DNA of 64,000 bases from Moorella sp. Hama-1 (lineage in GTDB: Bacteria; Bacillota; DSM-521; Neomoorellales; Neomoorellaceae): NCBI RefSeq assembly GCF_023734095.1, contig NZ_AP024620.1, positions 2,042,501 to 2,106,500 on the forward strand, in the 5' to 3' direction. The position numbers were made by a program, and so were the translations under genes. The notes under the pieces are model-generated. The model was not told the DNA's origin. It ran no database searches and was given only the letters and a program-made list of their open reading frames with translations. Positions 1-51,315 of this stretch are shown piece by piece. Every line of letters begins with the position of its first letter. Positions within the stretch are counted from its first letter, which is position 1.

Positions 1-806
1 ATGCCGGCCTCCATGGCTGCCGCAACTGCTGCCGGGGTTACCCCATCGATCACCACCTCCAGGACGGCATTGACTTCGGGGGGCAGAAGGGTGCTGGGGA
101 CCAGGCCCCTGAGGGTAGGACAGAAAGATACATTGGTGGAAGCATTGAGAAATTTATACCGGGAGCCTACCTGGCTGCCGCTGCGTACTATCCCCCCCGG
201 AAAAGGCAGGATGACGCCCCGCAAAGACCTAATGGCGGCGGCAGCAGCTTCGGCTGCTTCCAGGGCCGCCCCGGCCGTCCCGGCCAGGATAAGAAAATTC
301 CCCCCGCCGACAGCCTTAACGACTGTAAAATCCTCCTGAACAAGGAATTCGCCTTCCATAACCGGAATTCGCCAGAAGCGTTTGCCGTCGATAACTTTAC
401 TGGCCTGGTAACCGTCGCCGAAAAAGCGCAGTTTTTTGCCGATACTTAACTTGGCCGGAGATCCTTCCCCGTCTCCCGCCGCTGCAATCCGGCCGTCATA
501 GCACGCTGTTGTGGGGGTTGTCATCACCGCCTGGCCGATACGGTTAATAAGTTGCTTTTCCATAGCGTCTTTGGAAGTAGTGAAAAAGAGGCAATCAATC
601 CCCGGCCGGCCATCGGGGGTCGCAGGTGAGGGACCCTCAATGCCGGCTTCGACCCCGCACCCGATGACGGAGGTGGCAAAACCGGTAGCCGCCACAGCAG
701 CCTCACGGGCCCATTTCTCATTGATAGCCGTAATGGTGACCCGTGTACCGTACATGGTGAAGGCCTCGGCAAAGGTATCCTCGATTTCTACCCCATTTAA
801 GCGCAT
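1..806 (-). CDS. ftr: Formylmethanofuran:tetrahydromethanopterin formyltransferase, C-terminus cut by window edge
   Basis: Transfers the formyl group between formylmethanofuran and H4MPT in the cytoplasm; called Ftr in methanogens and FhcD in methylotrophs. I translated it by hand because it runs off the left edge: about 268 residues are visible of the roughly 300 usual. It begins MRLNGVEIEDTFAEAF and keeps the family blocks ATGFATSVIGCGVEAGIEGP, TPDGRPGID, RIGQAVMTTPT, FFGDGYQ, VMEGEFLVQEDF, FPGGIVRSGSQVGS and FLNASTNVSFCPTL. The ATG overlaps the end of fwdA by 10 bp, so the two are translationally coupled. A subunit C gene probably follows outside the window. Family assignment is firm; the physiological direction is not known. 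Confidence 0.93.
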   Translation of the reverse strand, partial: MRLNGVEIEDTFAEAFTMYGTRVTITAINEKWAREAAVAATGFATSVIGCGVEAGIEGPSPATPDGRPGIDCLFFTTSKDAMEKQLINRIGQAVMTTPTTACYDGRIAAAGDGEGSPAKLSIGKKLRFFGDGYQASKVIDGKRFWRIPVMEGEFLVQEDFTVVKAVGGGNFLILAGTAGAALEAAEAAAAAIRSLRGVILPFPGGIVRSGSQVGSRYKFLNASTNVSFCPTLRGLVPSTLLPPEVNAVLEVVIDGVTPAAVAAAMEAG

Positions 807-2446
807 GGGACCACCTCCGGGTTGGCTACATACTCGTCTTCCACGCCATAATTGGCCAGGGAAACAGTGTAGAATTCAGCGAAATCCCGCTGTAGTTCCA
901 TCGGCAAGGTCGAGGGTGCGGGAGGGGCGACCATGAGGGTCCTGCCGGAGGCACCGGCCACGATCTGGCCTTCCCGGATGATAAGTTTACCGCCCTTAAG
1001 GACATATGCTGCCCTGGCGAACATGGCTTGCTTATCCCTCTGGGGACGATAAATGGCAATATCGGCGTCGGCGCCAGGACCAAGATGCCCCTTCCGGGTC
1101 AAGCCCAGGGCCCGGGCAGGGCCGGCGCGGGTAATGATGGCGATTTCCTCCAGGGTATACTCGCGGTTAAGTTCCGCCAGGCAGGTGTAGCGCTGCACCC
1201 GGGGATTGAGTTTCGCCAGCCATTCCCGGCGGTAATCAGCATCCATAAGCAGATGGATGATCTGGGGATAGGCTGTGAACGGCCCGGCATTGGGGTGGTC
1301 GGTGGTAAGGAAAATTTGCCACGGGTTAGTCACCAGCAAAAGCAGTTCCAGGCCGATGGCCCACTGCACGGCGTTGACCAGGACCTCAGGGCGGTAGTTC
1401 AGGGGAACAACTCCCGATCCGCTTTCCATCTCGATATCGCAGTTGCTCCATTTATTACCTGTTAACCGGTGCAGGTTAAACTGCATGGGGGCGTCGGCCG
1501 TCATGGTAGTAGCCGGTCCGAAGACAATCTGACCTGCATCGCAGGTAAATTCCGGGTGCTGGTTGAGATATTCCGCTACCTGGGGCGCTGCCGACCGGAT
1601 ACCGCCCTTTTTGGTAGCAGCGTAGGAGTGAAATTGCAAATGCGTGAAATGCACCCGGTGGCCGGACAAAAAACGCATCGTTTCCAGGGTGGTCCGGAAA
1701 TTACCCGCCTGGCCGAGATGGTTGGCATGCAGGTGCAGGGAGTGGGGCAGCCGGAGATCTTCCACTGCTTCTACCAGCACCTCTAAAATCCGACGCGGCG
1801 TAACGCCGAAGGGGGGTACGGGCGTATCCAGATCGACTTCGCCCCGGCCCCATTTCCAGTTTTCTACACCCCCGGGGTTGACTGCTTTAACGGCGTAGCC
1901 CTTGCTCGCGCGCAGCAGCCAGGCCACCAGGTCCCGCGTCTGTTCCCGCCGGCGCGGGGCATCGACGTCGCTAATAGTTTTCATCACCAGGTAGTTGTTG
2001 CCCATCAGCGTATAAAACCCCGTATCGAGGAGGGGCATATCCCGGAGTTCCTCATGGACATGGCGCGCCTCGAGGGGAGGTGCGGCAGCTTCGAAGGCGG
2101 TAGTGTAGCCCATCGTGGCATACAGGTAACCGGTATAAAAAGAGGTTGGCGTGGTACAGCCGCTGCCGGAACGGGTCCGGGAAGTCCTGGCCCTAAAATG
2201 CTCATAGTGATCTTCCGGGCATAACAGGCGGCCGCTGTTAACCTTCGGGCCGGCGATGTGGCTGTGGATCTCAACGCCGCCAGGCATGACGACCAGGCCC
2301 GAGGCATCAATTATGTCTATGGGGCTGCCCGCAGACTCGCGGTCGGGACCGGCCACAATCTTATCGCCTTCGATATAGATGTCCTTAACGGCCCCTTTTA
2401 TACCGTTAGCAGGATCATAGACCTGGCCGTTAGCGATTTTGATCAC
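797..2446 (-). CDS. fwdA: Formylmethanofuran dehydrogenase subunit A (amidohydrolase-type)
   Basis: FwdA/FhcA is the binuclear-metal amidohydrolase subunit that interconverts formate and formylmethanofuran. The 549-residue length is normal. The metal-site motifs are visible: GGVEIHSHIAGPKVNSGRL near residue 58, PEDH shortly after, the region with the lysine expected to be carboxylated (GYAVKAVNPGG, about residue 185), LHANHLGQ, THLQFHSY and the aspartate in TTDHPNAGPF (about residue 383). It overlaps fwdB by 17 bp and ftr by 10 bp, so it lies in a tight operon. Methylotrophic bacteria use FhcA as a hydrolase. Here the redox-type subunits B and D next door argue for the archaeal dehydrogenase form. 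Confidence 0.95.
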   Translation of the reverse strand: MIKIANGQVYDPANGIKGAVKDIYIEGDKIVAGPDRESAGSPIDIIDASGLVVMPGGVEIHSHIAGPKVNSGRLLCPEDHYEHFRARTSRTRSGSGCTTPTSFYTGYLYATMGYTTAFEAAAPPLEARHVHEELRDMPLLDTGFYTLMGNNYLVMKTISDVDAPRRREQTRDLVAWLLRASKGYAVKAVNPGGVENWKWGRGEVDLDTPVPPFGVTPRRILEVLVEAVEDLRLPHSLHLHANHLGQAGNFRTTLETMRFLSGHRVHFTHLQFHSYAATKKGGIRSAAPQVAEYLNQHPEFTCDAGQIVFGPATTMTADAPMQFNLHRLTGNKWSNCDIEMESGSGVVPLNYRPEVLVNAVQWAIGLELLLLVTNPWQIFLTTDHPNAGPFTAYPQIIHLLMDADYRREWLAKLNPRVQRYTCLAELNREYTLEEIAIITRAGPARALGLTRKGHLGPGADADIAIYRPQRDKQAMFARAAYVLKGGKLIIREGQIVAGASGRTLMVAPPAPSTLPMELQRDFAEFYTVSLANYGVEDEYVANPEVVPCA

Positions 2447-3725
2447 GGGCTACTCTCTCCTTTAGCCATCGTAATACCTCTTCATCCGATGGAGAGGGAT
2501 AGTCAACCAGTTTCTTCAGGTGCAGGGGAACATTGTCCATGCGGTAGAAAGTGCCTGTCACCCCCACCCCCGCCGGGGATACCGGGATAACGACCCGGGC
2601 CCAGGGGGTTGTCAGGTTGCGATGGGGCTCCAGGACAACTGTCGGTATCCGCCGCAAATATTCCACCGCGGCCCCGGGCAGGTGGGCGCCGGGGTCGGTA
2701 GCGACGATCAGCGCAGCATCCACTTCCCGGCGTCCCAGCATATCCACAACGCTAAACTCACCGGGATTGTAACGCGGGTAACCCCGGCTCAAGTTAACGG
2801 CGAAGGGATAACCGGTCTGCCAGGTCAGCACGTGATTGCTGCCGGTAACATTACCGTGACCGCGCATGGGGATGGCATAAAAGCGGGTATATTCGTTCAG
2901 CTCCTGGACCAGGGTCAGGAGCAGTTCTGTATTTAATTCCCTGCCGCGGCTCATCGTTAAACCGATACCGAAAAAGACAACCCCATATTGACAGGTTTTC
3001 ATTAATTGGGCCAGTTCTCCCCAGGCGGCCAGGGGAATGCCGGCGATAGAGCCGGTGCCCTTCCCCGGCCCGTTTAACGGCAGCCCTTTAACCAGGGCGC
3101 GCAGGATCGTCAAGGCTTCGAAGTCACGACCCGCCTGAACCTGGAGAAAAGTATCGGCGGCCCGGGCCGTAGGCGTGGGCCTGATGTCGATGACTACAAT
3201 TTTTTTACCCTGGCGCCCGGTGGAGGTAAAGAGTCCCCTGGCCAGGGCGGAATAACGGCTAAAATGGCGCATGTGGGCCTCCAGGGGATTACAACCCCAA
3301 AAAATTAAGAGATCGGCCCGGTTTTTCACTTCTCCCAGCGTACATGAGGCCAGCCCTACCTGCTGGCGGGCGATAACGCCCGGCCCGTGTCAATACGAAG
3401 CCGGGTTATCAATGGTAGCACCGATGAGATCGGCAAGGGCTACGGCCTCGCGTTGCGCTTCGGTAGTGGTGCTGCTCAAGCCATAGATCAAAGGAAACCT
3501 GGCCTGGCTTAATATCCGGGCGGCCGCCTCCAGGGCTTCCTCTAGGGAAGCCGGTTGCCCGTTAACTGTTACAGCGCCCAAATTTTTCTGGGCATGCAGA
3601 AGTTTGTTCCTGCCGATGGCGCAGGCCCGTTTGACCTTCTTAATTTGATTATTTTCCACTTCAACCTCAAGGTCGTCGCACAGGCAACTGCAAAAGGTAC
3701 AGACTACATTTTGAATGCTGCTCAT
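2430..3725 (-). CDS. fwdB: Formylmethanofuran dehydrogenase subunit B, probable selenoprotein (UGA at 3390-3392)
   Basis: This is the molybdopterin catalytic subunit that reduces CO2 to formate or oxidises formate. Two open segments (3390-3725 and 2430-3389) lie in one frame, separated by a single TGA at codon 112. Reading through gives 431 residues, the family length. The TGA sits in PASY-U-HGPGV, where archaeal FwdB has catalytic Cys or Sec in front of HGP. The N-terminus carries a 4Fe-4S motif (CTFCSCLCDD, with a further Cys in RACAIGRNK). The downstream half (FWGCNPLEAHMRHFSRY, PMRGHGNVTGSNHV) is intact. Bacterial Fhc B subunits of methylotrophs usually lack a working active site, so this one looks archaeal-type. 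A pseudogene is unlikely because nothing else is damaged. Confidence 0.9.
3349..3392 (-). promoter_or_regulatory. Candidate bacterial SECIS element of fwdB
   Basis: Directly after the in-frame UGA (3392-3390) the mRNA reads CACGGGCC, resembling the start of the E. coli fdhF context. Twenty-two bases on, a perfect 6-bp stem GCCAGC/GCTGGC (3367-3362 with 3354-3349) closes a 7-base loop AGGUAGG. That loop resembles the AGGU loop of the fdhF SECIS. A competing hairpin GGGCG/CGCCC lies at 3381-3368. The loop begins 28 bases after UGA, longer than in fdhF but plausible for a SelB target. The fold is by eye only. Confidence 0.65.
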
Positions 3726-4102
3726 TTTGCTTTCTCCCCCCTTCCGTAGGTTGCGAGATTCTGATCTTGCAAAGGCTCAAGCTTTACTTCCAGCCCCTTA
3801 AAGTCAGGTACCCCGGTCCCTTGCGTATCAGTACCGATAACCTGGTTGGCCACAGGCCCCAGGGGAAGAAAAAACAGGCCCCCCGGCACTTCGGCCGTCC
3901 GGCAGGTTACGATGGCTTCGCCGTAAGTGCTGGTTAAACGCACCCGGTCACCAGGTTCCACGCCCAGGGCAGTCAAATCGTCCGGGTTTATTTGCAACGT
4001 GGCAACCTCCTCCTGGTACTCCGGACTGCTTTTATCGCTGACCATGGCTATTCCTTGCCTGGCAGTCCGGACAGTAATCAATAAGCCACAGATGTTCGAC
4101 AA
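3722..4102 (-). CDS. fwdD: Formylmethanofuran dehydrogenase subunit D (molybdopterin dinucleotide-binding)
   Basis: A 126-residue protein matching the C-terminal molybdopterin-dinucleotide-binding beta-barrel domain that is a separate subunit in archaeal formylmethanofuran dehydrogenases. Characteristic segments are LQINPDDLTALGVEPGDRVRLTSTYGEAIV and GGLFFLPLGPVANQVIG. The last of these, with N near the end, contacts the cofactor in the family. Its stop overlaps the fwdB start by 4 bp (ATGA type) and its start overlaps the ATP-grasp gene by 25 bp. Methylotroph fhc clusters normally lack this subunit, so its presence supports a true redox enzyme with a Mo or W cofactor. Confidence 0.88.
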   Translation of the reverse strand: MSNICGLLITVRTARQGIAMVSDKSSPEYQEEVATLQINPDDLTALGVEPGDRVRLTSTYGEAIVTCRTAEVPGGLFFLPLGPVANQVIGTDTQGTGVPDFKGLEVKLEPLQDQNLATYGRGEKAK

Positions 4103-5373
4103 TCGCCGTCACCTTCTCCTAAAATTCTCCGTGCCCAGGCAGCCCGGGAACCCAGTTGTTGCCGGCAAGAGTTTTCGCTGGCGGCCCGAACTATGACCGT
4201 GCAGACCGGCTGGCCGGCAGAGACCAGCGTTCCCGGCAGCGGGATATCGCGCATTCCCTGCCGGTAAAGAAGCCCGGGGCCTATGAGCGGTGCTACGGTA
4301 AAGGTCTTTTGCGCGTAGACGATGGCCTTTCCCCAAAAGTCGTACTGTACAGTGGGTCGGCAGGCGGGCCTTCCCCGGTCATTGCCCACGCCGCCTCCGG
4401 AAAAAATGAGCTCTGGATTTATTGCGTTCCCAAAACCGCAGGCAGCAATATGCCAGGCAAAAAGGGGCAGATTGAGCTTTTTTTCAATGAGTTCGACTGA
4501 GGCCGACCAGCGTGGATTAACTTCCAGAACCCAGATCCCCCTCGAATTAGCTATAAAATCAATTGTATTCAACCCTTTAAGGCCAAAGGTTGCTGTCAGG
4601 TGCCCGGCTATGCGGTTAAGAAGCCTTTCCAAAACCTGCATTCCGGGCCGAAAGGGAAGGACAAGGGGAACAATATTGCCGGCATAGACAAACGGGCGCG
4701 CCCCCGGTTCACCCGCTCCCACGAGCTGCCGGCTGGCACCGAGCAAGACGGCCCGCCGCCCATCGGCCAGAAAAGTAGCCGAACAAGGTATACCGGGAAT
4801 AAACTGTTGAATTATAAAACCCTCTTTGTCCTGCAAGGCCGTTAATTGGGACCTCGCCTTCACCGGCTCCCGGGATAACAGGCGAATACCGTGGCCGCCG
4901 CCACTGGCCAGGGGTTTCAGCAACCATTGCCTGCCTGTAGCCGGCATTAACCGGCGATCCGCCCTTGTAAAGGGAGGCATAGCAACATTTATCTGCGCCA
5001 GAGCCTTGCGGAGCAGCCAGGGATCTCGAACGCCTTTTAAGGCCGAGGGAGGGTTGCCTGCCAGCAGACCTCGTCTTTCCCAAAATCCCAGCCCTTCCGG
5101 GTGGTTGTCAGGCCCTGACGTATAAACCATTCCCTCGAAGGGATTATCACAGGTATCAATCGCCGGACCTCCGGGGACCAGAGTTATGCTCCTGGCTAGG
5201 GCGAGGAGGTTCTTTACCGAGGGCATAAGGCCAAGATCACTCTTCAAACCAAGCACCGGCCCCTGCTGGCGACTATCCCAGTCGCCATAATAGTCAAGGG
5301 CCAGTACATTAAAGCCGGCCTGAACGGCAGACTCCACCACGGCTCGAGAGCTTATGCCGACTATAAGGAACAA
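4078..5373 (-). CDS. ATP-grasp domain protein of the H4MPT C1 cluster
   Basis: A 431-residue protein with an N-terminal Rossmann-like pre-ATP-grasp segment (MFLIVGISSRAVVESAVQAG). The ATP-grasp core follows (about residues 130-310) with WLLKPLASGGGHGIRLL, a substrate-loop region FIIQQFIPG, and the Mg/ATP-binding IWVLEVNPRWSAS. ATP-grasp proteins of unknown exact substrate are conserved in bacterial methanopterin gene clusters and are thought to act in cofactor assembly. Its place between mtdB (6-bp gap) and fwdD (overlap) fits that. Whether it adds an amino acid to a methanofuran or H4MPT precursor is inference. Confidence 0.8.
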   Translation of the reverse strand: MFLIVGISSRAVVESAVQAGFNVLALDYYGDWDSRQQGPVLGLKSDLGLMPSVKNLLALARSITLVPGGPAIDTCDNPFEGMVYTSGPDNHPEGLGFWERRGLLAGNPPSALKGVRDPWLLRKALAQINVAMPPFTRADRRLMPATGRQWLLKPLASGGGHGIRLLSREPVKARSQLTALQDKEGFIIQQFIPGIPCSATFLADGRRAVLLGASRQLVGAGEPGARPFVYAGNIVPLVLPFRPGMQVLERLLNRIAGHLTATFGLKGLNTIDFIANSRGIWVLEVNPRWSASVELIEKKLNLPLFAWHIAACGFGNAINPELIFSGGGVGNDRGRPACRPTVQYDFWGKAIVYAQKTFTVAPLIGPGLLYRQGMRDIPLPGTLVSAGQPVCTVIVRAASENSCRQQLGSRAAWARRILGEGDGDCRTSVAY

Positions 5374-5379
5374 CCGAGT

Positions 5380-6243
5380 TCAGGCTCCCAACTCTTTGGT
5401 TAAAGTATAAATAGCTTCCAGGTCCAGAACCTGATCGTTACGTTGATATAAGGCCTGCAGGGCAGCACGATGGACCTTCATTTTTAAGTTGCCAATAGCA
5501 ATAGCCCCATAAACGATTTTCCCCTGCCTCTCCTTCCCGTCATCACCCACCTTAATGCCTTCAATGCCCAGGGGTTCCACAGCATTGATATCAGCCATGA
5601 TTTCCAGGCTCTCCTGTTGCGTCCAGGTGGCCTGGTCCAGTAACTGCACCCCCGGGCTGCCGCAGCAGACGGCGATATTGATCCCCTTTGCCAGGGCGGC
5701 ATTTGCATCCTGCTTCCCGGTAACCTGCAGGGGCTCTACCTCCACCCCTCCTTGTTGCTTAAGGTGCTGGCAAACTTCTTGAGCCCGTTCTAATTGGCGT
5801 GAAGATAGTAAGACCTGGCAGCCTTCTCGAAACAATAGTTTGGCAATCCTGGTGCCTACAGGGCCGGTGCCGGCAAGGACCAGGGCTTTCTTGCCGGTAA
5901 GGTTGCGCCCCCGCGCAATTTTTTGTACGGCTGCCGATGCCGTGGTATTGCAGCCGTTGGGATCAAACATCACCGCAACCCTCACCGGGCCGAAAAAGGT
6001 TTTTTGTACTTGGTCGAGGAGTTCCTCCGCCTCAACCACCCGGGTGCCGCCGATAAATATCGCTGAATGGCGTAAATCCTCCCCGCCGCGAGTAAACATA
6101 ACACCATAGACCAGGGGTGCTACTTCCGCCGGCGAAATCCCCCCGTAAGCCATGACGTGATCAACCCCGGCGTCATAGGCTACAACCTGATCAAAGACAC
6201 TGGCTCTAGTATCCCTCTCCAAATGGAGTAAAAGCTTTTTCAT
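5380..6243 (-). CDS. mtdB: NAD(P)-dependent methylene-H4MPT dehydrogenase (MtdA/MtdB family)
   Basis: Oxidises methylene-H4MPT to methenyl-H4MPT with NAD(P). The ATG at 6243 is chosen because the protein then starts MKKLLLHLERDTRASVFDQV, as in the family, with GGAGGAGG six bases upstream; an upstream in-frame extension has no family similarity. The product is 287 residues. Diagnostic blocks are YDAGVDHVMAYGG, VMFTRGGEDLRHSAIFIGG, FFGPVRVAVMFDPNGCNTTA, the nucleotide-binding VLAGTGPVGTRIAKLL, and EIMADINAVEPLGIEG near the end. It is the bacterial enzyme type rather than the F420-dependent archaeal Mtd. Choice between MtdA and MtdB cannot be made by eye. Confidence 0.9.
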   Translation of the reverse strand: MKKLLLHLERDTRASVFDQVVAYDAGVDHVMAYGGISPAEVAPLVYGVMFTRGGEDLRHSAIFIGGTRVVEAEELLDQVQKTFFGPVRVAVMFDPNGCNTTASAAVQKIARGRNLTGKKALVLAGTGPVGTRIAKLLFREGCQVLLSSRQLERAQEVCQHLKQQGGVEVEPLQVTGKQDANAALAKGINIAVCCGSPGVQLLDQATWTQQESLEIMADINAVEPLGIEGIKVGDDGKERQGKIVYGAIAIGNLKMKVHRAALQALYQRNDQVLDLEAIYTLTKELGA

Positions 6244-6614
6244 TGTCAACCTCCTCCGAAAATAGCATTCTACCAAAAATGGTTGCAATTTATAGTAACT
6301 GCTGCGGGGCTGGCGGGCACAGGCTTCAGGCTCCGGTGGTTCTCGGCGAGCAAACTTAGCGCTCAGCCTTCCTCGGCGGCGGGGGTGGCAGAACTCTGTT
6401 CTTTTGATCAAATATGACGGGGAGTGCTACTACTCAATCCTGAAGCCACGTTACGATCCCCATCCCGTTCACCGCCGCCTTGGTGCGGCTTCGCTGAGTT
6501 TGCTCTGCGCCTCGAACCAAGTCGCCTTCAACCTGTACCCGCCAACCCCTGTCTCCACCTGCATTTTCATCTTTCGTAGCGGGGGCTTCAACCCCCATGA
6601 GGGGTTCCTCCATT
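6244..6614. repeat. Intergenic stretch with repeat family A and a piece of repeat B
   Basis: The 371 bases between mtdB and the DUF447 gene contain no convincing gene. From about 6494 to 6548 the sequence TCGCTGAGTTTGCTC ... CTCGAACCAAGTCGCC ... CCTGTACCC repeats with changes at 20128-20169 and 56367-56427 (family A). The end at 6575-6605, with CCCCCATGAGGGG and TTCCTCC, resembles the end of repeat family B at 17870-17889 and 32910-32930. It interrupts an otherwise tight operon. Confidence 0.6.
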
Positions 6615-7253
6615 TCAAGGCAAGGAGATGCCTTGCTCCTGCAAAAATTCACGGATAAGGTTGTAAGCCTGCATCTCCCGCACCCCGCCGGTCTTGTTGA
6701 CTAGCTCCCGCCAGTAAGGCCAGTTTCTTGCCAGCCATTCGGTTTCAATATATTGCCATCGGGTCGCGGCGATGGCGGCCTCCAGTACGGCCATCCGGGC
6801 GCGACAGAAACCGTAAACACCGGTTTCTGCTTCGCAATGCAGGATTTCCGCCTCAACCACAGCCGGTTCGATAGCAGCGTCAAAAGTAGTTACCCTGAAC
6901 TCCCAGAAAGCGCCGGCACCTGCCAGCCGCGGCGGCCGGACCTGCCGGGACTGTGAATACGGAGGGCAGGAAGAAAAAAGGGCCGTCTCCACAAAGAGCA
7001 AGACGTCATCCGTAAAGCAGATTACCCCCTCCCTCGTTGCATACAAATTCTTATAGGTTTGCGAACTGCTATAGGGTCGCAGGCGAAACCCCGGCCGGGT
7101 ATCCCCCGCAGGACCCCTTTGCTCCCGGGGAGCGCTCCGGGGAAAATCATTGCCTTCCTTGCCGGGAGTTTGCTGGAGCAGGTGGACCCCCATGGGAGCA
7201 AAATTGATTGCGCCTGCAGGGCTGATCGTAGAAACTATCGCCTCGAGGATCAT
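6615..7253 (-). CDS. DUF447 family protein of the methanopterin cluster
   Basis: A 212-residue protein of the DUF447 family, found in methanogens and in bacteria with H4MPT-linked C1 metabolism; its reaction is not established, although a flavin-reductase-like fold has been suggested for such proteins. It starts MILEAIVSTISPAGAINFAPMGVH, typical of the family, and continues with CFTDDVLLFVETAL, FWEFRV and a C-terminal helical part VYGFCRARMAVLEAAIAATR. The ATG at 7253 overlaps the previous stop in an ATGA arrangement, which decides the start over an upstream in-frame ATG. Operon membership suggests a role in cofactor synthesis or protection. Confidence 0.82.
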   Translation of the reverse strand: MILEAIVSTISPAGAINFAPMGVHLLQQTPGKEGNDFPRSAPREQRGPAGDTRPGFRLRPYSSSQTYKNLYATREGVICFTDDVLLFVETALFSSCPPYSQSRQVRPPRLAGAGAFWEFRVTTFDAAIEPAVVEAEILHCEAETGVYGFCRARMAVLEAAIAATRWQYIETEWLARNWPYWRELVNKTGGVREMQAYNLIREFLQEQGISLP

Positions 7254-8632
7254 CTTTGGTCCCGCTCCCCGGCCGCGTCGGCGTTCATATAGCCCCACCG
7301 CAAGGGAAAATCCTGCCGGTACCTCTTCCCCAGCCGGGCGGCGAGCTCAGCTTTATCCAGTTCTCGCCCCAGGTAAAAAGCGTGGGCGGGATCAGTCACC
7401 GGTAGCCGGGCAATAAGTTCTTCGGCGCTGGTACCGCGGAGGAAAAGACGGTTATTAAACACATAAATATACCGGCCGGCCACAAAAATCCGGAAGTTTT
7501 TATCTTTAATTTGAGCCTGCATCTCGCGCAGCTCGGTTTCGGTGAAAAGATTGCTCCGGGGGTCTTTAATGGTTAAAAGCCCGTCGTCCAGATGTTTAGG
7601 CAGGCGCCCCTGCGCCAGCGCCCGCTGCATAAGCCTGCGAGCCAGGTCGACCTCTTTAACGGCACCAGCAGCCCGGTGACTGACTTCGGTGGTAAGGACA
7701 TAATCGATATTCAATTCCGTGGCCAAACCCACCAGGAGGGCATTGATACCCGTACTATCGGCATCCACCAGCTCAGTAACATTGCCCAGGCCCATAAGCA
7801 CCGCCCGGTCCGGGAACCTTTTTCTCACTTCCACGTAGCGGCTGATCCCCTCCGCCAGTCCCAGGGTCAACGGCGGCAGGATGGGGTCAATGACATAGGG
7901 CCGGCCCCAGCGCTCCATTTGTTCGATGTTGCGGTACAGGGAAGGCAACCCCTCACCTTCATCGGGGATTATTACGGCAGGACACTCCAGTTCTTTAGCC
8001 AGCTCCAGGTTCTCGGAGTTGAGGCTTAAGACCAGATCCACTCCCGCTTTATTGGCATCGCGAATGTCCTCGGCCCGGTGACTGTCTACGCTGACGGTGA
8101 ACCCTTCTGCTTTTAAGGCCCGCACCGCTTCCCCCAGGTGGGGGAAAGATTGGTCTACATCACAGCCAATATCAATGATATCGGCCCCGCCCTGCCGGTA
8201 GTAACGCGCCCGTTCCACTATTTGCGGCAGGGTCAAGCCGGAGGCTGCCACTATTTCCGCCAGGATTTTGAGCCGCGGCCCGGGACCGGCTTCTTCCGCC
8301 GGAGGAGCGTGGATAGCACCGGGCGTTTTGTACCCGATTAAGCAGGCGGGCAGGTCTTCTAGGTCCGCGGGACCCCGCAGCACCCGGCAGCCTGTGGCTG
8401 CGGTAATGCATTCCAGGGGGCCCTGACACAGGCCGGGGATGATTATTATTTCCGCGCCGGTCTCCTCCCGCACTCCCTGGAGATGCCGGCTGATATACTC
8501 TGTAGTCATCAATGCCGCTACCGATCGCGGCAACACTTTTATGACCCAGCCTCCCGGTAGCTCGAGACCCGCAACGACCTTTTCCAGAGCCCTGCAGGCT
8601 AATTTTCCCGTCACCAGCAAGTACCTGGCCAT
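7250..8632 (-). CDS. Dihydropteroate-synthase-like protein (TIGR00284/DUF6513 type)
   Basis: A 460-residue protein with an N-terminal domain of about 120 residues (MARYLLVTGKLACRALEKVV ... IIIPGLCQGP) followed by a pterin-binding TIM-barrel: LKILAEIVAASGLTLPQI, ADIIDIGCDVDQSFPHL, VSVDSHRAEDIRDANKAGVDLVLSLNSEN, and RPYVIDPILPP. Proteins of this form occur in methanogens and in H4MPT-using methylotrophs and are believed to join the pterin to RFA-phosphate in methanopterin synthesis. It overlaps the DUF447 gene by 4 bp and is 26 bp downstream of the flavoprotein gene. The exact step is inferred from family context. Confidence 0.87.
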   Translation of the reverse strand: MARYLLVTGKLACRALEKVVAGLELPGGWVIKVLPRSVAALMTTEYISRHLQGVREETGAEIIIIPGLCQGPLECITAATGCRVLRGPADLEDLPACLIGYKTPGAIHAPPAEEAGPGPRLKILAEIVAASGLTLPQIVERARYYRQGGADIIDIGCDVDQSFPHLGEAVRALKAEGFTVSVDSHRAEDIRDANKAGVDLVLSLNSENLELAKELECPAVIIPDEGEGLPSLYRNIEQMERWGRPYVIDPILPPLTLGLAEGISRYVEVRKRFPDRAVLMGLGNVTELVDADSTGINALLVGLATELNIDYVLTTEVSHRAAGAVKEVDLARRLMQRALAQGRLPKHLDDGLLTIKDPRSNLFTETELREMQAQIKDKNFRIFVAGRYIYVFNNRLFLRGTSAEELIARLPVTDPAHAFYLGRELDKAELAARLGKRYRQDFPLRWGYMNADAAGERDQR

Positions 8633-8658
8633 AGGATTAACCCTCCCTCGCTACCAGG

Positions 8659-9195
8659 TTAAAGTACCAGGTTTTTTAAGTCCAGGGGGTTCGGTGCTAT
8701 GGTAACTCCCGGCCAGGTTGCCAGCCTGGAAATATTGCCGACGTCGATGGGCCGGGGGAGCAACTGGACCCGGATACCGCCGGGGGCCACGGATACTTCT
8801 TCTCCCGGCATATCGGTTGGCAGAATTATAACCGGCACCCGGCACTTGCCGGCATGGGCGAACAAGTTGGTCACCAGGCTATCGGCTATACCCCAGGCCA
8901 TTTTGGCAACCGAGTTGGAGGTGGCCGGGGCGATAACCACCAAGCGGTAATACCCCCGGTACAGCCCGGTTACCGGCCGGGAAGCCCCGGTATGATCCCA
9001 GTACAACCGGTGGCCGGTGGCTGTTAAGGATTCCAGCAGCCCATAACTCCTTAGCACCTCGCGGCCGGCGCGGGAAATAAAAACGTCGACCGCCTTGAGT
9101 TCTTTTAAAATATCCAGGCACTGGTGGAGAAAATGGCCCGCTCCAGTAATACCCCAGGCAATTCGCCCCTGGTATTCAAATTTTTGTTGCCCCAT
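8659..9195 (-). CDS. Flavoprotein, probable dihydromethanopterin reductase (DmrB/AfpA-like)
   Basis: A 178-residue flavoprotein-fold protein starting MGQQKFEYQGRIAWGITGAG, followed by ISRAGREVLRSYGL, VVIAPATSNSVAKMAWGIADSLVTN, VPVIILPTDMPG and a GGIRVQLLPRPID block. These are features of the archaeoflavoprotein/DmrB family, whose members reduce dihydromethanopterin to H4MPT with FMN. The ATG at 9195 is preferred; it overlaps the beta-RFAP synthase gene by 20 bp. An upstream in-frame start would overlap about 80 bp. The Shine-Dalgarno sequence is weak, consistent with coupled translation. Confidence 0.83.
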   Translation of the reverse strand: MGQQKFEYQGRIAWGITGAGHFLHQCLDILKELKAVDVFISRAGREVLRSYGLLESLTATGHRLYWDHTGASRPVTGLYRGYYRLVVIAPATSNSVAKMAWGIADSLVTNLFAHAGKCRVPVIILPTDMPGEEVSVAPGGIRVQLLPRPIDVGNISRLATWPGVTIAPNPLDLKNLVL

Positions 9196-10207
9196 AGTAC
9201 TCGAACCTGCTGTTACTCTCTTTCTCCGCGACTTTGCACCAGCCCCAACTGGCACCTTGATTCCGCCCCCGGGCTACCCACACGTCCCCTCTACCCGAAA
9301 GATAGGACCGGGCCGCCTTTTCCAGAATGGCCAGTTTTTCTTCAGAGGCAAAGCCGTAAACTGTCGGCCCCCAGGAGCTTTGCCCGACTCCGGCCGCCCC
9401 TGCCGACAGGAGGAGTTCTGCGAGTTCGGCTCCTTCCCGGGTGGCAAAAACCCCTCCCTGGACGGGTGCAAAATATGAACCGATAATTTGCTGCATCTCA
9501 GTGACCCCTTCCCCAAAAAGAGCGAGATTCTTTTCGACCAGGGCCGGCAGGACCTTCATAAGCACCAGGCGGCAAAGCCTGCCGGAGAGCTCCTCAGCCA
9601 TCGGCGGCAGTGATTGAAATGCCAGTTTTTCTTTGCTGCCGCTAATTCTCTCCTGCTTATGGGGTGTTGCCAGGACGATACCCCATTCCCGAGGAAAAGG
9701 TAGACAGGCGACAACCGGGGGCACCTGGAAAGGGGTTTCACCGGCGCCGTTCCGGCGCGCTGCCGGCATACCGCCGTCCACCAGGAAACCGCCCCGGGTG
9801 AAGACGGCCACGCCAATGCCGGAACGGCTGCCTTCCCGGTCCGTAAGCCGGGCCAGTTCCATTATCGCCGGTTGCAAACCGTAAACGCGAGTGAGGGCCA
9901 GGCCAAGGGCCAGGGAAAGCTGGGTTCCTGACCCCAGCCCGCTGTGGGCCGGGAAGGAGCTGGCAATTTGAATCTTTGCGCCGGGTAAACCATAATGCCG
10001 GCAATACTGCCGGGCAATGGCCAGGGCCCTATCCACTTCTTCCTCCGGACCGGCGATATTTAGGTCTTTATCCGGCTGGGCGCTGATTTCCAGGCAGGGC
10101 CGATCTACAGCCAGGCCTATACCCCCGTACAGGCGGCCCATCGAGCCGTTGAGGTCCAGTTGACCCAGGTGCAGGCGGGCGCTGGTCTTAACCCGAAAAA
10201 TCGGCAT
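9176..10207 (-). CDS. mptG: Beta-ribofuranosylaminobenzene 5'-phosphate synthase
   Basis: Catalyses the first committed step of methanopterin synthesis: condensation of PRPP with 4-hydroxybenzoate or p-aminobenzoate with loss of CO2 and PPi. The 343-residue GHMP-kinase-fold protein begins FRVKTSARLHLGQLDLNGSMGRLYGGIGLAVD. It has the glycine-rich GHMP motif in SSFPAHSGLGSGTQLSLALG (about residue 92) and a late GAAGVGQSSWGPTVYGF block, all typical of beta-RFAP synthase. Its presence indicates that the cell makes its own H4MPT-type cofactor rather than borrowing folate. Confidence 0.92.
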   Translation of the reverse strand: MPIFRVKTSARLHLGQLDLNGSMGRLYGGIGLAVDRPCLEISAQPDKDLNIAGPEEEVDRALAIARQYCRHYGLPGAKIQIASSFPAHSGLGSGTQLSLALGLALTRVYGLQPAIMELARLTDREGSRSGIGVAVFTRGGFLVDGGMPAARRNGAGETPFQVPPVVACLPFPREWGIVLATPHKQERISGSKEKLAFQSLPPMAEELSGRLCRLVLMKVLPALVEKNLALFGEGVTEMQQIIGSYFAPVQGGVFATREGAELAELLLSAGAAGVGQSSWGPTVYGFASEEKLAILEKAARSYLSGRGDVWVARGRNQGASWGWCKVAEKESNSRFEYYGATKI

Positions 10208-10251
10208 TTATGCATCACCTGTTGCCCAGAGTATGGCCGGCTATGCCCGGG

Positions 10252-10280
10252 GCAGGCCCCCCTTTGCCGGGAGGGCCTGC
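10252..10280. other. Intergenic inverted repeat between aquaporin and mptG genes
   Basis: GCAGGCCC (10252-10259) and GGGCCTGC (10273-10280) form a perfect 8-bp stem with a 13-base loop. There is no T-run after it on the minus strand, so it is not a clear terminator. It may protect or process the operon mRNA. Confidence 0.5.
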
Positions 10281-10304
10281 CTGCCATTTTTCTCTCCCGG
10301 AAAG

Positions 10305-11051
10305 TTACCCTTCCTTGACAACAGCGTCGTAAATCCAGACGGCAATAATTGCCCCCACGATGGGTGCCAGCAGGTATATCCAGAAGACAGGCCAGTTGTT
10401 GGGCCCGCCAGCCAGGCTGTCAATCAGATAAGGCCCGAAGGTACGGGCGGGGTTAATCCCTTGTCCGGAAACATTACCTAAAGTTGTAATTACGCCTCCC
10501 ACGATAAGTCCGATAATCAATCCCGCCCAACCCTGGGGGGCACGTTTATCGACTGCGATCCCCATGATGGTCAACATCAGGATAAATGTTCCTACTGCTT
10601 CGGCAATAAAAACCTGGCTCAAACTGATACCGGGGAAAGGTCCCGGGGCACCGAGGCCGCCGACTGTAGCCCCTTTCATACCCAGCATAGCCAGTAAGGT
10701 CAGGGCACCGAAGGCCGCACCGCCGAACTGGGCGATTAAATAGGGTATAACTTCAGCCGCCGGGAAGCGCTTGCTGGCCCAGAGGGCGATAGTTACCGCC
10801 GGGTTAAAATGCGCGCCAGATACGGGACCAAAAATATAAATTCCCGCCGCAATTACAATTGCAAAGGCCAGGCCTATGGAAAGCCAGTCTCCCAGCCCCC
10901 CCAGGGCGCCGATACCTATATTGAACTGGGAAGCCGCTTTTTCCCCCTGGGCCAGCATGAGGGTTACAGCGGCAGCCCCGGCGCCGACTACTACCAGCAT
11001 CCAGGTGCCAATGAATTCCGCGCAAAATTTTTTGATCATAGAAGCCTGCAT
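10305..11051 (-). CDS. Aquaporin / MIP-family channel
   Basis: A 248-residue membrane channel with six predicted transmembrane segments and the two half-helix motifs HFNPAVT (about residue 83) and GINPARTFGP (about residue 210). The second includes the selectivity-filter arginine. It conducts water or a small neutral solute. It lies between the DUF2193 gene and mptG on the same strand, with gaps of about 100 bp, so it is probably in the same operon. A C1 compound such as methanol as the physiological cargo would fit the surroundings but is only inference; the sequence alone does not separate water from glycerol channels. Confidence 0.88.
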   Translation of the reverse strand: MQASMIKKFCAEFIGTWMLVVVGAGAAAVTLMLAQGEKAASQFNIGIGALGGLGDWLSIGLAFAIVIAAGIYIFGPVSGAHFNPAVTIALWASKRFPAAEVIPYLIAQFGGAAFGALTLLAMLGMKGATVGGLGAPGPFPGISLSQVFIAEAVGTFILMLTIMGIAVDKRAPQGWAGLIIGLIVGGVITTLGNVSGQGINPARTFGPYLIDSLAGGPNNWPVFWIYLLAPIVGAIIAVWIYDAVVKEG

Positions 11052-11154
11052 CCCAAACCCTCCCCTGAAGAATTAGACAAGGAGAATTCGTGGAGAAAGG
11101 ATGGGCGGGAGCCCCTCCGGGCAACCTGCCCACCCTATTTCGTAATTGTCGAGA

Positions 11155-12636
11155 TCAAACCGATTGCTTCCAATTGCAATAATCATGTCGCTTAATCAAA
11201 GTAGTAACGGCACAATCCTTGCAAACCCTTGCCGGGGAACCAGGTGTTTGGGGATCCAGGGCGATAATATTAGTCATCAAGGTGGCGGTAACCGGCTCGC
11301 TGGTCAGGAGACAGGGGAAATCCGCTAAACGCATCAATGAAGAGAAACGTACCGTAATGGCACAGGCAGGATAAGTATAACGCTGCGGGTTGGTAATAAC
11401 ATCATTGGCGTCAATGGGATCAAGTTGTACCGGAATACCTCGTACTTTACCGCCAGCACCTATCGGGCTTACCTCTAGTATCTTGCTGCCGCGGTGGAGC
11501 ATATCCAGGAAATCACAATTGTGGAGTTCGGCCGCCGCACCGCGGTTGGGATATTTCTGAACATAGTTGAAGAAGCGCTTAGTTAAAAGATCGATAACCA
11601 TGGGAACAGTGAAACCATCTTTTTCTAAAATATAGGCTACGGCAGCGGCCGAAGAGCCCGTGGCCACACTCAGGACATCATACTGGCTCTTAAAGCCCTG
11701 TTCCAAGCCAACGTTCAAAGTTTTCTCCATTACTTCCGTTACGGCCTCGATAATGGCCATGGTCATATCATCTTTAGCCATATTGAACATTGATTGGGCT
11801 ATGTGGTGAGCCACGTCACCGACACAGTAGGCAGGTACGGTGACTATGTTCCCATAATGGACCCCGGCATCTACGGCTGCTTTAACAGCGGGGCGCATCC
11901 TTTCTTTATACATTTCCATGTACTTCTTAACGTCAAAAGAGGAATGCCCTGCTTCAATCATCAACCTGGTTTGGGCTTCAATGGGCCGATCGTAAACCAG
12001 TTGCAGCATGGCAATTTCTTCTTTGACTGCTTCAGACGCCGTCTTACCAGCCTCAATGGCCGCGGCAAAGGCGGCACCAATACCGTATGAGGTATTCATA
12101 CCCCAAGATTTGGCGGAAAGGATGGCCTTCTTGTAGTCCTTATCTATATCCAGTCCCCGCAGAATATCATTAACCACATTACTGGTCGAGCCCGGGCAAT
12201 AGGCAAAGTCTACCACACATGTGGGTCCATAGAAGCCGCCATAGCGGCGGATAGCCTCCCTCCCCACCAGGGCCTCATTGGCAGCAATGGCAGCAATAAA
12301 TTTTTCTACCGCCTGGCGGAAAGCCGGATCTAGTTCGTAGAGAATCTCCAAAATAGCCGGAGTCTGATAATGTTCTACAAAGGGGTCGTCTTCAGGCCGT
12401 ACAGTCTCAGTCAACTGGTTCAAAATATCATAGTGAGCGTTAACCGAATCAACATGCAAACGAATAACTTCAGGGCTCTGTCCCTCTCCTACCTTCATGC
12501 CATTGACGGCGTCAACGTAAGGTTTGGCATCGGTGATTTTGAAAACACCACCTCTTTTGGCCTTGATGACCTCAACGTCTGCCTTCTGAGCAGCCATGGC
12601 TTCGGCCACCATTTTGGCGTATACCGCCTGCGACAT
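11155..12636 (-). CDS. DUF2193 family protein
   Basis: A 493-residue soluble protein of the DUF2193 family, known mainly from methanogenic archaea; no reaction is established. Visible features are a conserved cysteine-bearing block GFYGPTCVVDFAYCPGSTSN (about residue 132), SAKSWGMNTSYGIGAAFAAA, YCVGDVAHHIAQSMFNMAKDD, and a C-terminal CKDCAVTTLIKRHDYC that could bind metal. It is the first gene downstream of a perfect sigma-54 promoter and is followed by the aquaporin and methanopterin genes. A role in handling a C1 substrate or the H4MPT/methanofuran pathway is inferred from context only. Confidence 0.78.
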   Translation of the reverse strand: MSQAVYAKMVAEAMAAQKADVEVIKAKRGGVFKITDAKPYVDAVNGMKVGEGQSPEVIRLHVDSVNAHYDILNQLTETVRPEDDPFVEHYQTPAILEILYELDPAFRQAVEKFIAAIAANEALVGREAIRRYGGFYGPTCVVDFAYCPGSTSNVVNDILRGLDIDKDYKKAILSAKSWGMNTSYGIGAAFAAAIEAGKTASEAVKEEIAMLQLVYDRPIEAQTRLMIEAGHSSFDVKKYMEMYKERMRPAVKAAVDAGVHYGNIVTVPAYCVGDVAHHIAQSMFNMAKDDMTMAIIEAVTEVMEKTLNVGLEQGFKSQYDVLSVATGSSAAAVAYILEKDGFTVPMVIDLLTKRFFNYVQKYPNRGAAAELHNCDFLDMLHRGSKILEVSPIGAGGKVRGIPVQLDPIDANDVITNPQRYTYPACAITVRFSSLMRLADFPCLLTSEPVTATLMTNIIALDPQTPGSPARVCKDCAVTTLIKRHDYCNWKQSV

Positions 12637-12696
12637 ACCATCAACCTCCCGAAGAAAGTTTTTCGTGGTGCGACCCGGGCACCATTATTTTATAAA

Positions 12697-12712
12697 TGCA
12701 AGTACCGTGCCA
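12697..12712 (-). promoter_or_regulatory. Sigma-54 (-24/-12) promoter of the DUF2193-led operon
   Basis: On the minus strand the sequence is TGGCACGGTACTTGCA, a full match to the sigma-54 consensus TGGCAC-N5-TTGC. It lies 60 bases upstream of the DUF2193 start and just beyond the end of the sigma-54 activator gene. Further upstream, GATCAG (12755-12760) and CTGATC (12772-12777) form an inverted repeat that could be the activator's binding site. Confidence 0.88.
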
Positions 12713-12754
12713 AGCATAAAATTAATTGAAAAACGCGCTTCACGTATAAATTTG

Positions 12755-12777
12755 GATCAGCGGGAGTCCTCCTGATC
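12755..12777. promoter_or_regulatory. Inverted repeat, possible upstream activator site
   Basis: GATCAG and CTGATC are separated by 11 bases, about 45-60 bases upstream of the -24 element. The position suits an enhancer-binding protein site, but the repeat is short and could be chance. Confidence 0.35.
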
Positions 12778-12886
12778 GCTCCATAAAGGAACACCCAAGA
12801 TGCAGTCGGAGTTAACCGAAGATATATTCTTCCTCTCTTTATTCTAAATTAAACCATAATAATACATGTTCCAAAACGGATCGGAG

Positions 12887-14869
12887 CTAGCGGCGAGGAA
12901 TGGGAATGGAGTATTTCTTCAATTTACGATAAAGGGTATTACGGCCGATACCTAAGATAGCCGCGCACTGGGAAATATTCCCTCCAGTCTCTTTTAGAGT
13001 TTCCAGTATCAGCTTTTCCTCGTATTTTTCCAGGGATACCAAATTTGTCTCCCTGATCTTGCCGTTGCTTGCAAGTAACTGTAAGGGTTCTGGTAAATGC
13101 TCAAGGGTAATGGTCTTACCCCGGGCCAGGTTGACTGCCCTTTCTATTGCATTAGAGAGTTCCCGTACGTTTCCCGGCCACCAGTAGCTCTCCAAAGCCC
13201 GGGCTGTCGCAGGATCAAGATTGCACGGGGCTAACTTAAGCATGGAGGAAAATTTTTGGATAAAATAATTCGCCAGCAGGATTACATCCCCTTCCCGGTC
13301 CCGTAAGGGGGGAATGGCCAGGCAAATAACGTTGAGGCGATAGTAAAGATCATTACGGAAATTGCCTTTCTCTACCTCTTTTTTTAAATTCCTGTTGGTA
13401 GCGGCAATGACCCTGATATTAACCGGTATAGGCGTAAGGCCGCCGACACGAACAACTTGTTTTTCCTGAAGAACACGGAGCAGGGACACTTGCGTTTCCA
13501 GGGGCATATCGCTAACCTCATCGAGGAAAATGGTGCCTTCATTTGCCAGCTCGAATTTGCCGGGACGACCGCCTCGTTTTGCCCCGGTAAAGGCCCCCTC
13601 TTCATAGCCAAAGAGTTCGCTCTCCAAAAGATCCCGCGGAATAGCCCCGCAGTTGATAGCTACAAAGGGCCCCTTCGCAACCGGACTGGCATTGTGAATA
13701 GCCTGGGCAAACATCTCTTTCCCGGTGCCGCTTTCACCTTCCAGGAGTACGGAAGACATGCTGAGGGCCACTGCTTTAGCGGTTTGAATGGTCCGGCGTA
13801 AAGCAGGGCTATGGCCGAGGATGTCGTCAAAGGTAAACTGGGCCCTGGCTCCTACCATTCTGGTAACCAAACGCTGGACGCTTTTCATGGCGCGTAAGGT
13901 AATAACGCCGCCATAAATTTTTCGTTCCTGATCCATAATCGGTCTACCAGTCAGTAAAAACTGGAGACGTCCATGGTTTGTATCCAAAAAAACTTCCTGG
14001 TCATTTATGGCCCGCTGGCCTGTGAGAAGATTATCAATGATGCCTGGCAACCCGAGAATTTTATTTATAGGTTGTCCCACACAATCTTCAGCCGCAATAC
14101 CCAGCATTTTAACGGCAACATGATTCATCTTGGTTATTTGCCCGTATTTATCAAACGATATGAGGCCTTCGGACATGGAATCAATAATTGCAGTAATATT
14201 ATTGTAGGATCTGGTAATTTCAGCGCCGGCCGCTTCCAACCGCAGTTGGTTTTCGATAGCTTGTACGGCAGCTACTACCATGCCCAGGGTATGAGCATGG
14301 GCGCGACGATAATCACCGGAAACATCGAGGATGCCAAGCATCTCTCCATTTTCGCCATGGATCGGGGCAGCAGAGCAGGTCAGCCAGTGATTGGCGCGGC
14401 AATAATGTTCGGTGGCATATACCTGCAGGTGTTTCTGTTCGATTTTTACTAAACCCATGGCATTGGTTCCTTTGGTTTCTTCGTCCCAAAATTCTCCTAT
14501 TTGAAAATGATAATCCCGGTTTAATATCTCCTGATCCCCCATAAGTTCAAGAATACAGGCTTCTTTATCAAGAAGGACCACGACAAAACCGGAACCCTTA
14601 ACCAGCCGGTAGAGATTTTCCAGAAAAGGCGCGGCGACTTCAATCAATCGCTGATAATGTTTGCGCCGGGCTTTTATCTCTGGTTCGGGCAACCGCATGG
14701 CAATCGGTTTTTCCGGGTTCAATTTTTTTTCAAGGCAACGCTGCCAGGAACGGAAAATCATCGAATTAATATACCCAGCGATTGTTTCCGGGTTTTCGCC
14801 CTTGATCACCATTTTTTCCCAATAAAAATATGTTTCTTTTTCATGCGATTCCCTCATTAGAACATTCAC
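12887..14869 (-). CDS. Sigma-54-dependent activator, GAF-PAS-AAA+-Fis (AcoR-like)
   Basis: A 660-residue enhancer-binding protein. The N-terminal 210 residues are GAF-like and resemble AcoR-type sensors (IFRSWQRCLEKKLNPEKP, FVVVLLDKEACILELMGD, GEFWDEETKGTNAMGL). A PAS domain follows at about 225-330 (IIDSMSEGLISFDKYGQITKMN). The AAA+ domain has Walker A GESGTGKEMFAQ, the sigma-54 contact motif GAFTGA, and Walker B GTIFLDEVSDM. A Fis-type helix-turn-helix is at the end (ISQCAAILGIGRNTLYRKLKK). There is no receiver domain, so it senses a ligand directly. The adjacent perfect sigma-54 promoter makes the DUF2193/H4MPT operon its likely target. Confidence 0.92.
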   Translation of the reverse strand: MNVLMRESHEKETYFYWEKMVIKGENPETIAGYINSMIFRSWQRCLEKKLNPEKPIAMRLPEPEIKARRKHYQRLIEVAAPFLENLYRLVKGSGFVVVLLDKEACILELMGDQEILNRDYHFQIGEFWDEETKGTNAMGLVKIEQKHLQVYATEHYCRANHWLTCSAAPIHGENGEMLGILDVSGDYRRAHAHTLGMVVAAVQAIENQLRLEAAGAEITRSYNNITAIIDSMSEGLISFDKYGQITKMNHVAVKMLGIAAEDCVGQPINKILGLPGIIDNLLTGQRAINDQEVFLDTNHGRLQFLLTGRPIMDQERKIYGGVITLRAMKSVQRLVTRMVGARAQFTFDDILGHSPALRRTIQTAKAVALSMSSVLLEGESGTGKEMFAQAIHNASPVAKGPFVAINCGAIPRDLLESELFGYEEGAFTGAKRGGRPGKFELANEGTIFLDEVSDMPLETQVSLLRVLQEKQVVRVGGLTPIPVNIRVIAATNRNLKKEVEKGNFRNDLYYRLNVICLAIPPLRDREGDVILLANYFIQKFSSMLKLAPCNLDPATARALESYWWPGNVRELSNAIERAVNLARGKTITLEHLPEPLQLLASNGKIRETNLVSLEKYEEKLILETLKETGGNISQCAAILGIGRNTLYRKLKKYSIPIPRR

Positions 14870-15367
14870 CCCCTTTAAAATTACAAGTCAATCTTTCGGT
14901 TTAAGTTTAAGTACTCCCTAGGCATGGAATATGAGTTATATATCCCCCCCGAATTATATTCAAACCAAATGGTGGCATGGCTCTTCCTCCTCCTGTATTA
15001 ATTTTTAAGTATATTTTACCAGGCTCGTCTGTTCCTGACTAGCATCTTCTACCCGGTAGGAAGGCCCCGCATAAGTTTCATTATACCGCTACGGCCAGGG
15101 CTTCGGGCGTGCCCAGACCCCCTGGCCAGGAGCTGCCTCATCCCTGATGTATAGTTAGACCGGCCGCTGTCCTGTTTTGTGTCCACCTTCACAATTAAGT
15201 ATAATTTAACGCAGTCGATATTACCGGGAAAAAGATACTTTTCCCGTAACCCGGACATAAATACTCGTACCGGCATTCCAAAAAGGAATATTAGACATAG
15301 CAGGATTTAATATGGTAACAACGAATCTTTAGATTACGTATCAAAAGAGAAGGAGTGAGGAGTAACA
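14870..15367. other. Intergenic region without recognised gene
   Basis: About 500 bases between the divergently transcribed activator gene (minus) and the yeeE-like gene (plus). It should hold promoters for both. I see no convincing coding frame. TGGCATGGCTCTTCC at 14973 is only a weak sigma-54-like match on the plus strand and lies nearly 400 bases from the next start. Confidence 0.5.
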
Positions 15368-28712: not shown

Positions 28713-28728
28713 TGCAAGTTCTATGCCA
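28713..28728 (-). promoter_or_regulatory. Sigma-54 promoter of the small gene
   Basis: The minus strand reads TGGCATAGAACTTGCA, matching TGGCAY-N5-TTGC in full. It points to the 62-residue gene and lies just downstream of the sigma-54 activator gene. A 10-bp palindrome TTGCGCGCAA at 28793-28802 is a candidate enhancer site about 75 bases upstream. Confidence 0.8.
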
Positions 28729-31224: not shown

Positions 31225-31315
31225 CAAACCTCGCCCCCTGGCGCACCATTTTTCTTAACCTATTATACAATACATCTGGCCGGATGGCGAGACAAAATCT
31301 TGGATTAATGGTATA

Positions 31316-51212: not shown

Positions 51213-51315
51213 ATAGCTCACCTCCCCCGTAACCGGGGTCCTACCAAAATGGCGACTGTTTAATCTGTAACCAGCTTTTTTGGGGCTGGAGTCTCCCACG
51301 AAAACGGGATCCTAT

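Follow-up and report, generated by a model that had tools for sequence, protein, structure and literature searches.

Sigma-54-dependent regulons of Clostridiales were described by Nie et al. (2019; PMC6615313). In the available part of that paper, the promoter consensus is TTGGCATN5TTGCT, and GAFTGA activators are encoded beside their target operons. The clostridial enhancers are TGT and ACA repeats with a 10–12 bp spacer. One of the groups, XhpR, is linked to hyp-memP in Desulfosporosinus, Carboxydocella, and Desulfotomaculum, and is given there with its function unknown. Firmicutes are named among the carriers of bacterial H4MPT/methanofuran C1 islands in the available text of Chistoserdova (2016; PMC5020050), where H4MPT/methanofuran reactions outside methanogens and methylotrophs are termed enigmatic. 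For AqpM, a review gives the physiological role as 'None identified' (PMC6912568).

We analyzed a 64-kb stretch of the Moorella sp. Hama-1 genome (the window). A DUF2193 gene and an aqpM gene head a run of H4MPT/methanofuran genes there, and a sigma-54-type site precedes the run. Sequence comparison gave a probability of about 85% that this site, 12697–12712, is a sigma-54 promoter worked by the adjacent activator.

A predicted sigma-54 promoter before the DUF2193 gene

The original prediction placed an exact sigma-54 site 60 bases before the DUF2193 gene. The site was present at that position on the minus strand (TGGCACGGTACTTGCA, 12712–12697), 60 nt before the ATG of ORF 11155–12636. It carries GG at −24 and GC at −12 with the fixed spacing, near TGGCAC-N5-TTGCW. 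From this spacing, the transcription start is predicted near 12686. Exact TGGCACN5TTGCW sites occurred twice in the window, at 12697–12712 and 50287–50302, so exactness alone is weak evidence. The second site lies inside a kdpD-like ORF (48489–51299) on the same strand and was judged a chance match.

The whole genome (3.32 Mb, a single contig) contained seven exact sites, and 0.0003 exact sites are expected per 250-nt intergenic region on one strand. Sites with at most one mismatch numbered 96, versus 45 for a reversed-pattern control. An exact site at genome position 620094, in a stretch rich in repeats, was also judged a chance match. Around it (about 612000–624000), many ORFs start with the same repeated peptides, like a CRISPR-like repeat array (L127). 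The genome had one rpoN match (E 2.2e-19) and nine strong activator domains among the 14 matches listed. Eight of the 14 genomic TGGCAYN5TTGCW sites were at most 3.5 kb from one of the nine activators, versus a mean of 0.28 and a maximum of 4 in 20,000 random placements. Another sigma-54-type site, TGGCATAGAACTTGCA, was seen at 28713–28728, between a different activator gene (28987–31227) and a U32 peptidase gene.

Conservation was analyzed in 16 Bacillota loci, namely L046–L058 (outside Halanaerobium), L149, L152, and the window. L149 and L152 were fetched once the consensus had been set. TGGCAYN5TTGC preceded DUF2193 in 15 loci, the window among them; L050 was one base off (TGGCCT). The −12 TTGC was retained in all 16. 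The distance from the site to DUF2193 was 56 to 147 nt; for L052 and L057, where the tblastn match begins at query residue 4, it was counted to that match and not to the start codon. The majority frequency averaged 0.98 over the ten core columns and was 0.47 and 0.42 in the flanks, whose median pairwise identity was 0.29. A conserved core with divergent flanks indicated that the conservation was not general sequence similarity. Across 219 kb from the loci of the 15 relatives, exact TGGCAYN5TTGC occurred 16 times: 14 were DUF2193 promoters and two stood before the activator gene. Among the loci listed, the closest DUF2193 was that of Moorella sulfitireducens (86%).

Four Halanaerobium loci had a looser TGGNAYN5ATGCA before DUF2193, as read from the sequences. 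In the 300 nt scanned before DUF2193 in 61 archaeal and other bacterial loci, the motif was not found at 0–1 mismatches, and the best match had two; L086 and L120 were excluded because their upstream DNA was too short. We found rpoN in 14 of the 16 Bacillota genomes with DUF2193 that were tested (the exceptions were L083 and L056, whose genome is 1.2 Mb; L048, the same isolate as L047, was omitted). None of four archaeal genomes and three of eight other bacteria had rpoN, and these three had no site before DUF2193. Conservation, rpoN, and the adjacency of the activator together backed the predicted sigma-54 promoter.

The activator and its predicted binding sites

Beside the promoter, a GAF-PAS activator without a receiver domain had been predicted. 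The domain search agreed, finding GAF, PAS, Sigma54_activat, and HTH_8 and no receiver domain. The best NCBIfam match was DhaR (NF008485; 446 bits, below the cut-off of 551). The GAF-PAS architecture suggests that the activator may sense a ligand. In a phylogenetic tree, DUF2193-linked activators (19 rows, including that of the window) were split from the other eight of this genome by a branch with 99/97 support. An activator of this one clade was upstream of DUF2193 in 13 of 13 Bacillota loci (L046–L058) and in three of four Halanaerobium loci, the fourth being cut. The GAFTGA loop was also present in the activators that precede DUF2193 in the Bacillota relatives. This adjacency supported a dedicated regulator. 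In the adjacency table, ORFs below 70 aa were dropped and other small ORFs were retained, of which spurious ones break some adjacencies; five loci in it had no DUF2193 cluster member.

XhpR could be a related precedent for the DUF2193-linked activator. Neither Carboxydocella nor Desulfotomaculum was among the 80 DUF2193 loci listed. Within these 80 loci, the absence of two of its three genera speaks against identity with XhpR.

The two closest relatives had exact sigma-54 sites 228 nt (L046:5500–5515) and 234 nt (L149:1611–1626) before the activator gene. These sites suggest that the activator is autoregulated in L046 and L149. The window had no zero-mismatch site before its activator gene, so autoregulation is not claimed for it.

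A motif search of the regions between activator and promoter gave TGY-N11-RCA. Of the 16 regions, 13 contained it, with 30 occurrences in all; 500 shuffles averaged 3.4 and never exceeded 10, a comparison that somewhat favours the motif since it was chosen after the search. Alternative spacers of 6 to 17 gave 1 to 10 occurrences. The motif agrees with the TGT/ACA class with a 10–12 bp spacer in the available part of PMC6615313. In L047, L048, L049, L051, and L053, sites were located 164–171, 146–153, and 80–83 nt before the −24 element.

The window region contained no full TGY-N11-RCA dyad, and each site had one good half; the regions of L050 and L149 were also without a full one. With half-dyads only, activation may be weak or altered in the window. 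We scored the window with an enhancer matrix built from the relatives only. The match at 12777–12793 is 81 nt upstream of the −24 element and ranked second in the 64-kb window. That at 12867–12883 is 171 nt upstream and ranked sixth. Both half-dyads thus stand where they would be expected from the relatives, activating sites of this kind lying about 80–200 nt from the promoter. The top match of the whole window, 11348–11364, lies inside the DUF2193 coding sequence.

The palindrome at 12755–12777 had been proposed as the footprinting target. An inverted-repeat search found no visible counterpart of it in the regions of the relatives, where the motif search gave TGY-N11-RCA instead, and it was rejected as the activator site. 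The conserved motif moves the place for footprinting to 12777–12793 and 12867–12883.

Gene run downstream of the promoter

The genes from DUF2193 to ftr are all on one strand, as the original prediction had described. Their coordinates are given in Table 1.

Table 1. Predicted features of the DUF2193 locus (positions in the window)
Feature	Position	Strand	Basis or remark
Activator (enhancer-binding protein): GAF, PAS, AAA+ with GAFTGA, Fis-type HTH	12887..14869	minus	start codon uncertain
Distal upstream activating site CGATCCGTTTTGGAACA, one good half-site	12867..12883	minus	6.3 bits
Possible weak middle activating site TGTATTATTATGGTTTA	12850..12866	minus	1.9 bits; included because its position is in phase
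Proximal upstream activating site TGTTCCTTTATGGAGCG, one good half-site	12777..12793	minus	10.9 bits
Sigma-54 −24/−12 promoter TGGCACGGTACTTGCA	12697..12712	minus	exact match and conservation before DUF2193 in relatives
DUF2193 protein, 493 aa	11155..12636	minus	Pfam PF09959, E 2e-254
AqpM-type aquaporin	10305..11051	minus	PDB 3ne2, E 2.6e-91; 2evu/2f2b, E 8.6e-89
Beta-RFAP synthase (H4MPT biosynthesis)	9176..10207	minus	TIGR00144, above cut-off
AfpA/DmrB-like flavoprotein (dihydromethanopterin reductase-like)	8659..9255	minus	below NCBIfam cut-offs
Dihydropteroate synthase-like protein (H4MPT biosynthesis)	7250..8632	minus	–
DUF447 protein	6615..7298	minus	–
Methylene-H4MPT dehydrogenase (Mtd-type)	5380..6243	minus	PF09176
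ATP-grasp protein, weakly MfnD-like	4078..5373	minus	–
Formylmethanofuran dehydrogenase subunit D-like	3722..4102	minus	Molydop_binding
Formylmethanofuran dehydrogenase subunit B	2430..3725	minus	TIGR03129 on both halves; in-frame TGA at 3390–3392
Formylmethanofuran dehydrogenase subunit A	797..2446	minus	TIGR03121, 735 bits, cut-off 393
Formyltransferase Ftr, truncated at the window edge	1..806	minus	–

AqpM was the closest solved relative of the aquaporin, the next-best aquaporin match having an E value of 7e-22. The true start of the flavoprotein is probably downstream of 9255. The Mtd ORF reaches 6411, and its domain starts near 6243. Past the window, the run led by DUF2193 continues with fwdC, mch, RimK-like, CitG-like, 4-HFC-P synthase, ATP-grasp, hydantoinase-like, AA_kinase, and HisA-like genes, in this order.

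Mtd, Mch, Ftr, and Fwd occurred together with cofactor biosynthesis genes, consistent with an H4MPT/methanofuran C1 pathway. Fae (PF08714) had no match in the genome and was found in two control genomes; by this test, the pathway does not match the H4MPT-dependent formaldehyde oxidation of methylotrophs. A divergent mch-like pair (L154) was seen at genome positions 1442931–1444609, outside the island, and the other pathway proteins compared had no match there. Elsewhere in the window, a 412-aa ORF (45818–47056) matched, one after another, parts of ThiC, the CobT-type phosphoribosyltransferase family, and DUF2284, an odd fusion.

The in-frame TGA of fwdB stands where relatives have cysteine (SY-TGA-HGPG). 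The same TGA was found in L046, L047, L050, and L051, and cysteine in L048, L055, L066, L079, and L084. The genome has a tRNA-Sec gene (72 bits). The RNA after the TGA folded no better than shuffles did. The product is probably a bacterial selenocysteine formylmethanofuran dehydrogenase subunit.

DUF2193 and AqpM in other genomes

We know of no function for DUF2193. Its predicted structure (AF2, pLDDT 83.7) had no match at E ≤ 0.001 in a Foldseek search of the PDB and none with Z ≥ 5 in VIA-align, and no PDB relative was found by sequence; weak or missing structural matches do not imply a new fold. A full-text search gave no mention of DUF2193 besides work on FeS2-grown Methanococcus voltae, and the part of that work available links DUF2193 to this growth without fixing its function.

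AqpM-like genes were present in 46 of 52 archaeal DUF2193 loci, 10 of 13 Bacillota loci, none of four Halanaerobium loci, and three of 11 other bacterial loci. At least two H4MPT/methanofuran genes were present in 2/52, 10/13, 4/4, and 5/11 of these loci, respectively. Among 398 genomes of the phylum, DUF2193 was found in 10, Mch in 25, and both in seven. The three DUF2193 genomes lacking Mch were 79–87% complete. With the count restricted to genomes of ≥90% completeness and ≤5% contamination, DUF2193 occurred in six of 356, all six with Mch. These counts associate bacterial DUF2193 with H4MPT metabolism and archaeal DUF2193 with AqpM. The archaeal pairing (loci among L059–L125) was not found in print by our literature search, and the available part of a DCMF metaproteome paper (PMC9768040) mentions no aquaporin, formylmethanofuran, or methanopterin.

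Tentatively, and with more doubt than confidence, we propose that DUF2193 and AqpM may form an unrecognized entry module of H4MPT-linked C1 metabolism common to archaea and bacteria. A small neutral substrate would enter through AqpM, and DUF2193, perhaps replacing the absent Fae, would convert it to methylene-H4MPT or load it in that form. Bacillota would have added the substrate-sensing sigma-54 activator. If this is true, a reporter on the promoter would reveal the substrate of both protein families.

Proposed mechanism and alternative readings

From the promoter, activator, enhancer motif, gene order, and conservation seen in the sequences, we infer induction of the run, its co-transcription as far as the last gene, the roles of DUF2193 and AqpM, and the direction of carbon flow as follows. 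RNA polymerase with RpoN would be held closed at 12697–12712 until the activator opens the promoter. On a signal received by GAF-PAS, activator oligomers would bind the TGT-N11-ACA-type sites around 12777–12793 and 12867–12883. Transcription would pass DUF2193 and aqpM and probably continue through the H4MPT/methanofuran genes, producing a substrate-induced C1 module. AqpM would let in a small neutral compound, and DUF2193 would act on it or hand on a C1 unit. Mtd, Mch, Ftr, and Fwd would then carry the C1 unit between methylene-H4MPT and CO2. Our preferred, tentative reading is a substrate-induced module through which C1 units would enter.

Alternatively, the sigma-54 motif could be coincidental and the operon could use a housekeeping sigma-A promoter, TTGGCA/AATAAT, that would overlap the site at 12713–12684. 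TTGGCA and AATAAT, separated by 18 nt, matched at 10/12 and ranked in the top two sigma-70-like pairs on the minus strand of 1–15500, a region with 10 such matches versus 12.0 in shuffles. The would-be −10 region was not conserved (majority frequency 0.42), whereas the sigma-54 TTGC was kept in every Bacillota locus and an activator of one clade always adjoined, which makes a sigma-A promoter very improbable. How far sigma-54 control reaches is a separate matter. The promoter and activator might govern DUF2193 and aqpM only, the H4MPT/methanofuran genes having their own promoter or promoters, for example in 6244–6614. In three of 13 relatives (L052, L054, and L057), the H4MPT core genes did not directly follow: DUF2193-aqpM stood alone after the promoter, and H4MPT-type genes were elsewhere in the locus (all three had HisA-like genes, and L052 also had ATP-grasp and CitG-type genes). 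L046 has a 710-nt stretch in which DUF447 went unrecognized; this stretch and the archaeal loci, in which AqpM-like genes are common and pathway genes rare, also favour a short unit. The gaps named in the original prediction were correctly placed (11052–11154, 103 nt; 10208–10304, 97 nt; 6244–6614, about 370 nt). A simple scan found no terminator-like or sigma-70-like match on their minus strand, but the 370-nt gap before mtd could hide a promoter that such a scan misses. L047, L048, L050, and L051 had no gap above 168 nt from DUF2193 to fwd, and we consider the short unit the less probable arrangement. From the shorter units and the gaps together, promoter control of DUF2193-aqpM appears well supported, and control to the end of the run likely.

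The signal could also be of another kind. Haem, flavin, and metals are among the ligands that PAS and GAF domains can bind, and through one of these domains the activator might answer a general state (redox, energy, or the supply of nitrogen or selenium) instead of a pathway substrate. The one Halanaerobium activator scanned (L066) had no recognized GAF or PAS, which fits this view. Against it, in all Bacillota loci seen the activator gene was linked to this one operon, as expected for a pathway-specific regulator, and its closest curated models, DhaR and PrdR (all below cut-off), are pathway-specific activators. A general-state signal seems rather unlikely.

Comparison with known systems

We regard the locus as a genuine case of sigma-54 catabolic control, a well-known type of switch, and as undescribed within the literature searched. 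The main text of PMC6615313 had no match for aquaporin, methanopterin, or Moorella, and that of another sigma-54 regulon study (PMC12316311) had none for aquaporin, methanopterin, or formylmethanofuran. The DUF2193-AqpM head and sigma-54 control are unmentioned in the available text of PMC5020050. With a dedicated, conserved activator and promoter, the questions of H4MPT role, AqpM role, and DUF2193 function turn into an inducer screen.

The locus shares its promoter type and activator adjacency, and its relatives the TGT/ACA enhancer class, with the sigma-54 catabolic regulons of Clostridiales, as far as these are described in the available part of PMC6615313. The activator has the same order of GAF, PAS, AAA+, and Fis HTH as DhaR/AcoR-type activators, but its target operon differs. 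Mtd, Mch, Ftr, Fwd, and cofactor genes are the same as those of bacterial H4MPT/methanofuran islands in the available text of PMC5020050. A difference from these islands is that fae is absent here and FwdB probably contains selenocysteine. As with archaeal AqpM (PDB 2f2b/2evu and 3ne2), the aquaporin is paired with DUF2193; here the pair is bacterial and under a predicted sigma-54 promoter.
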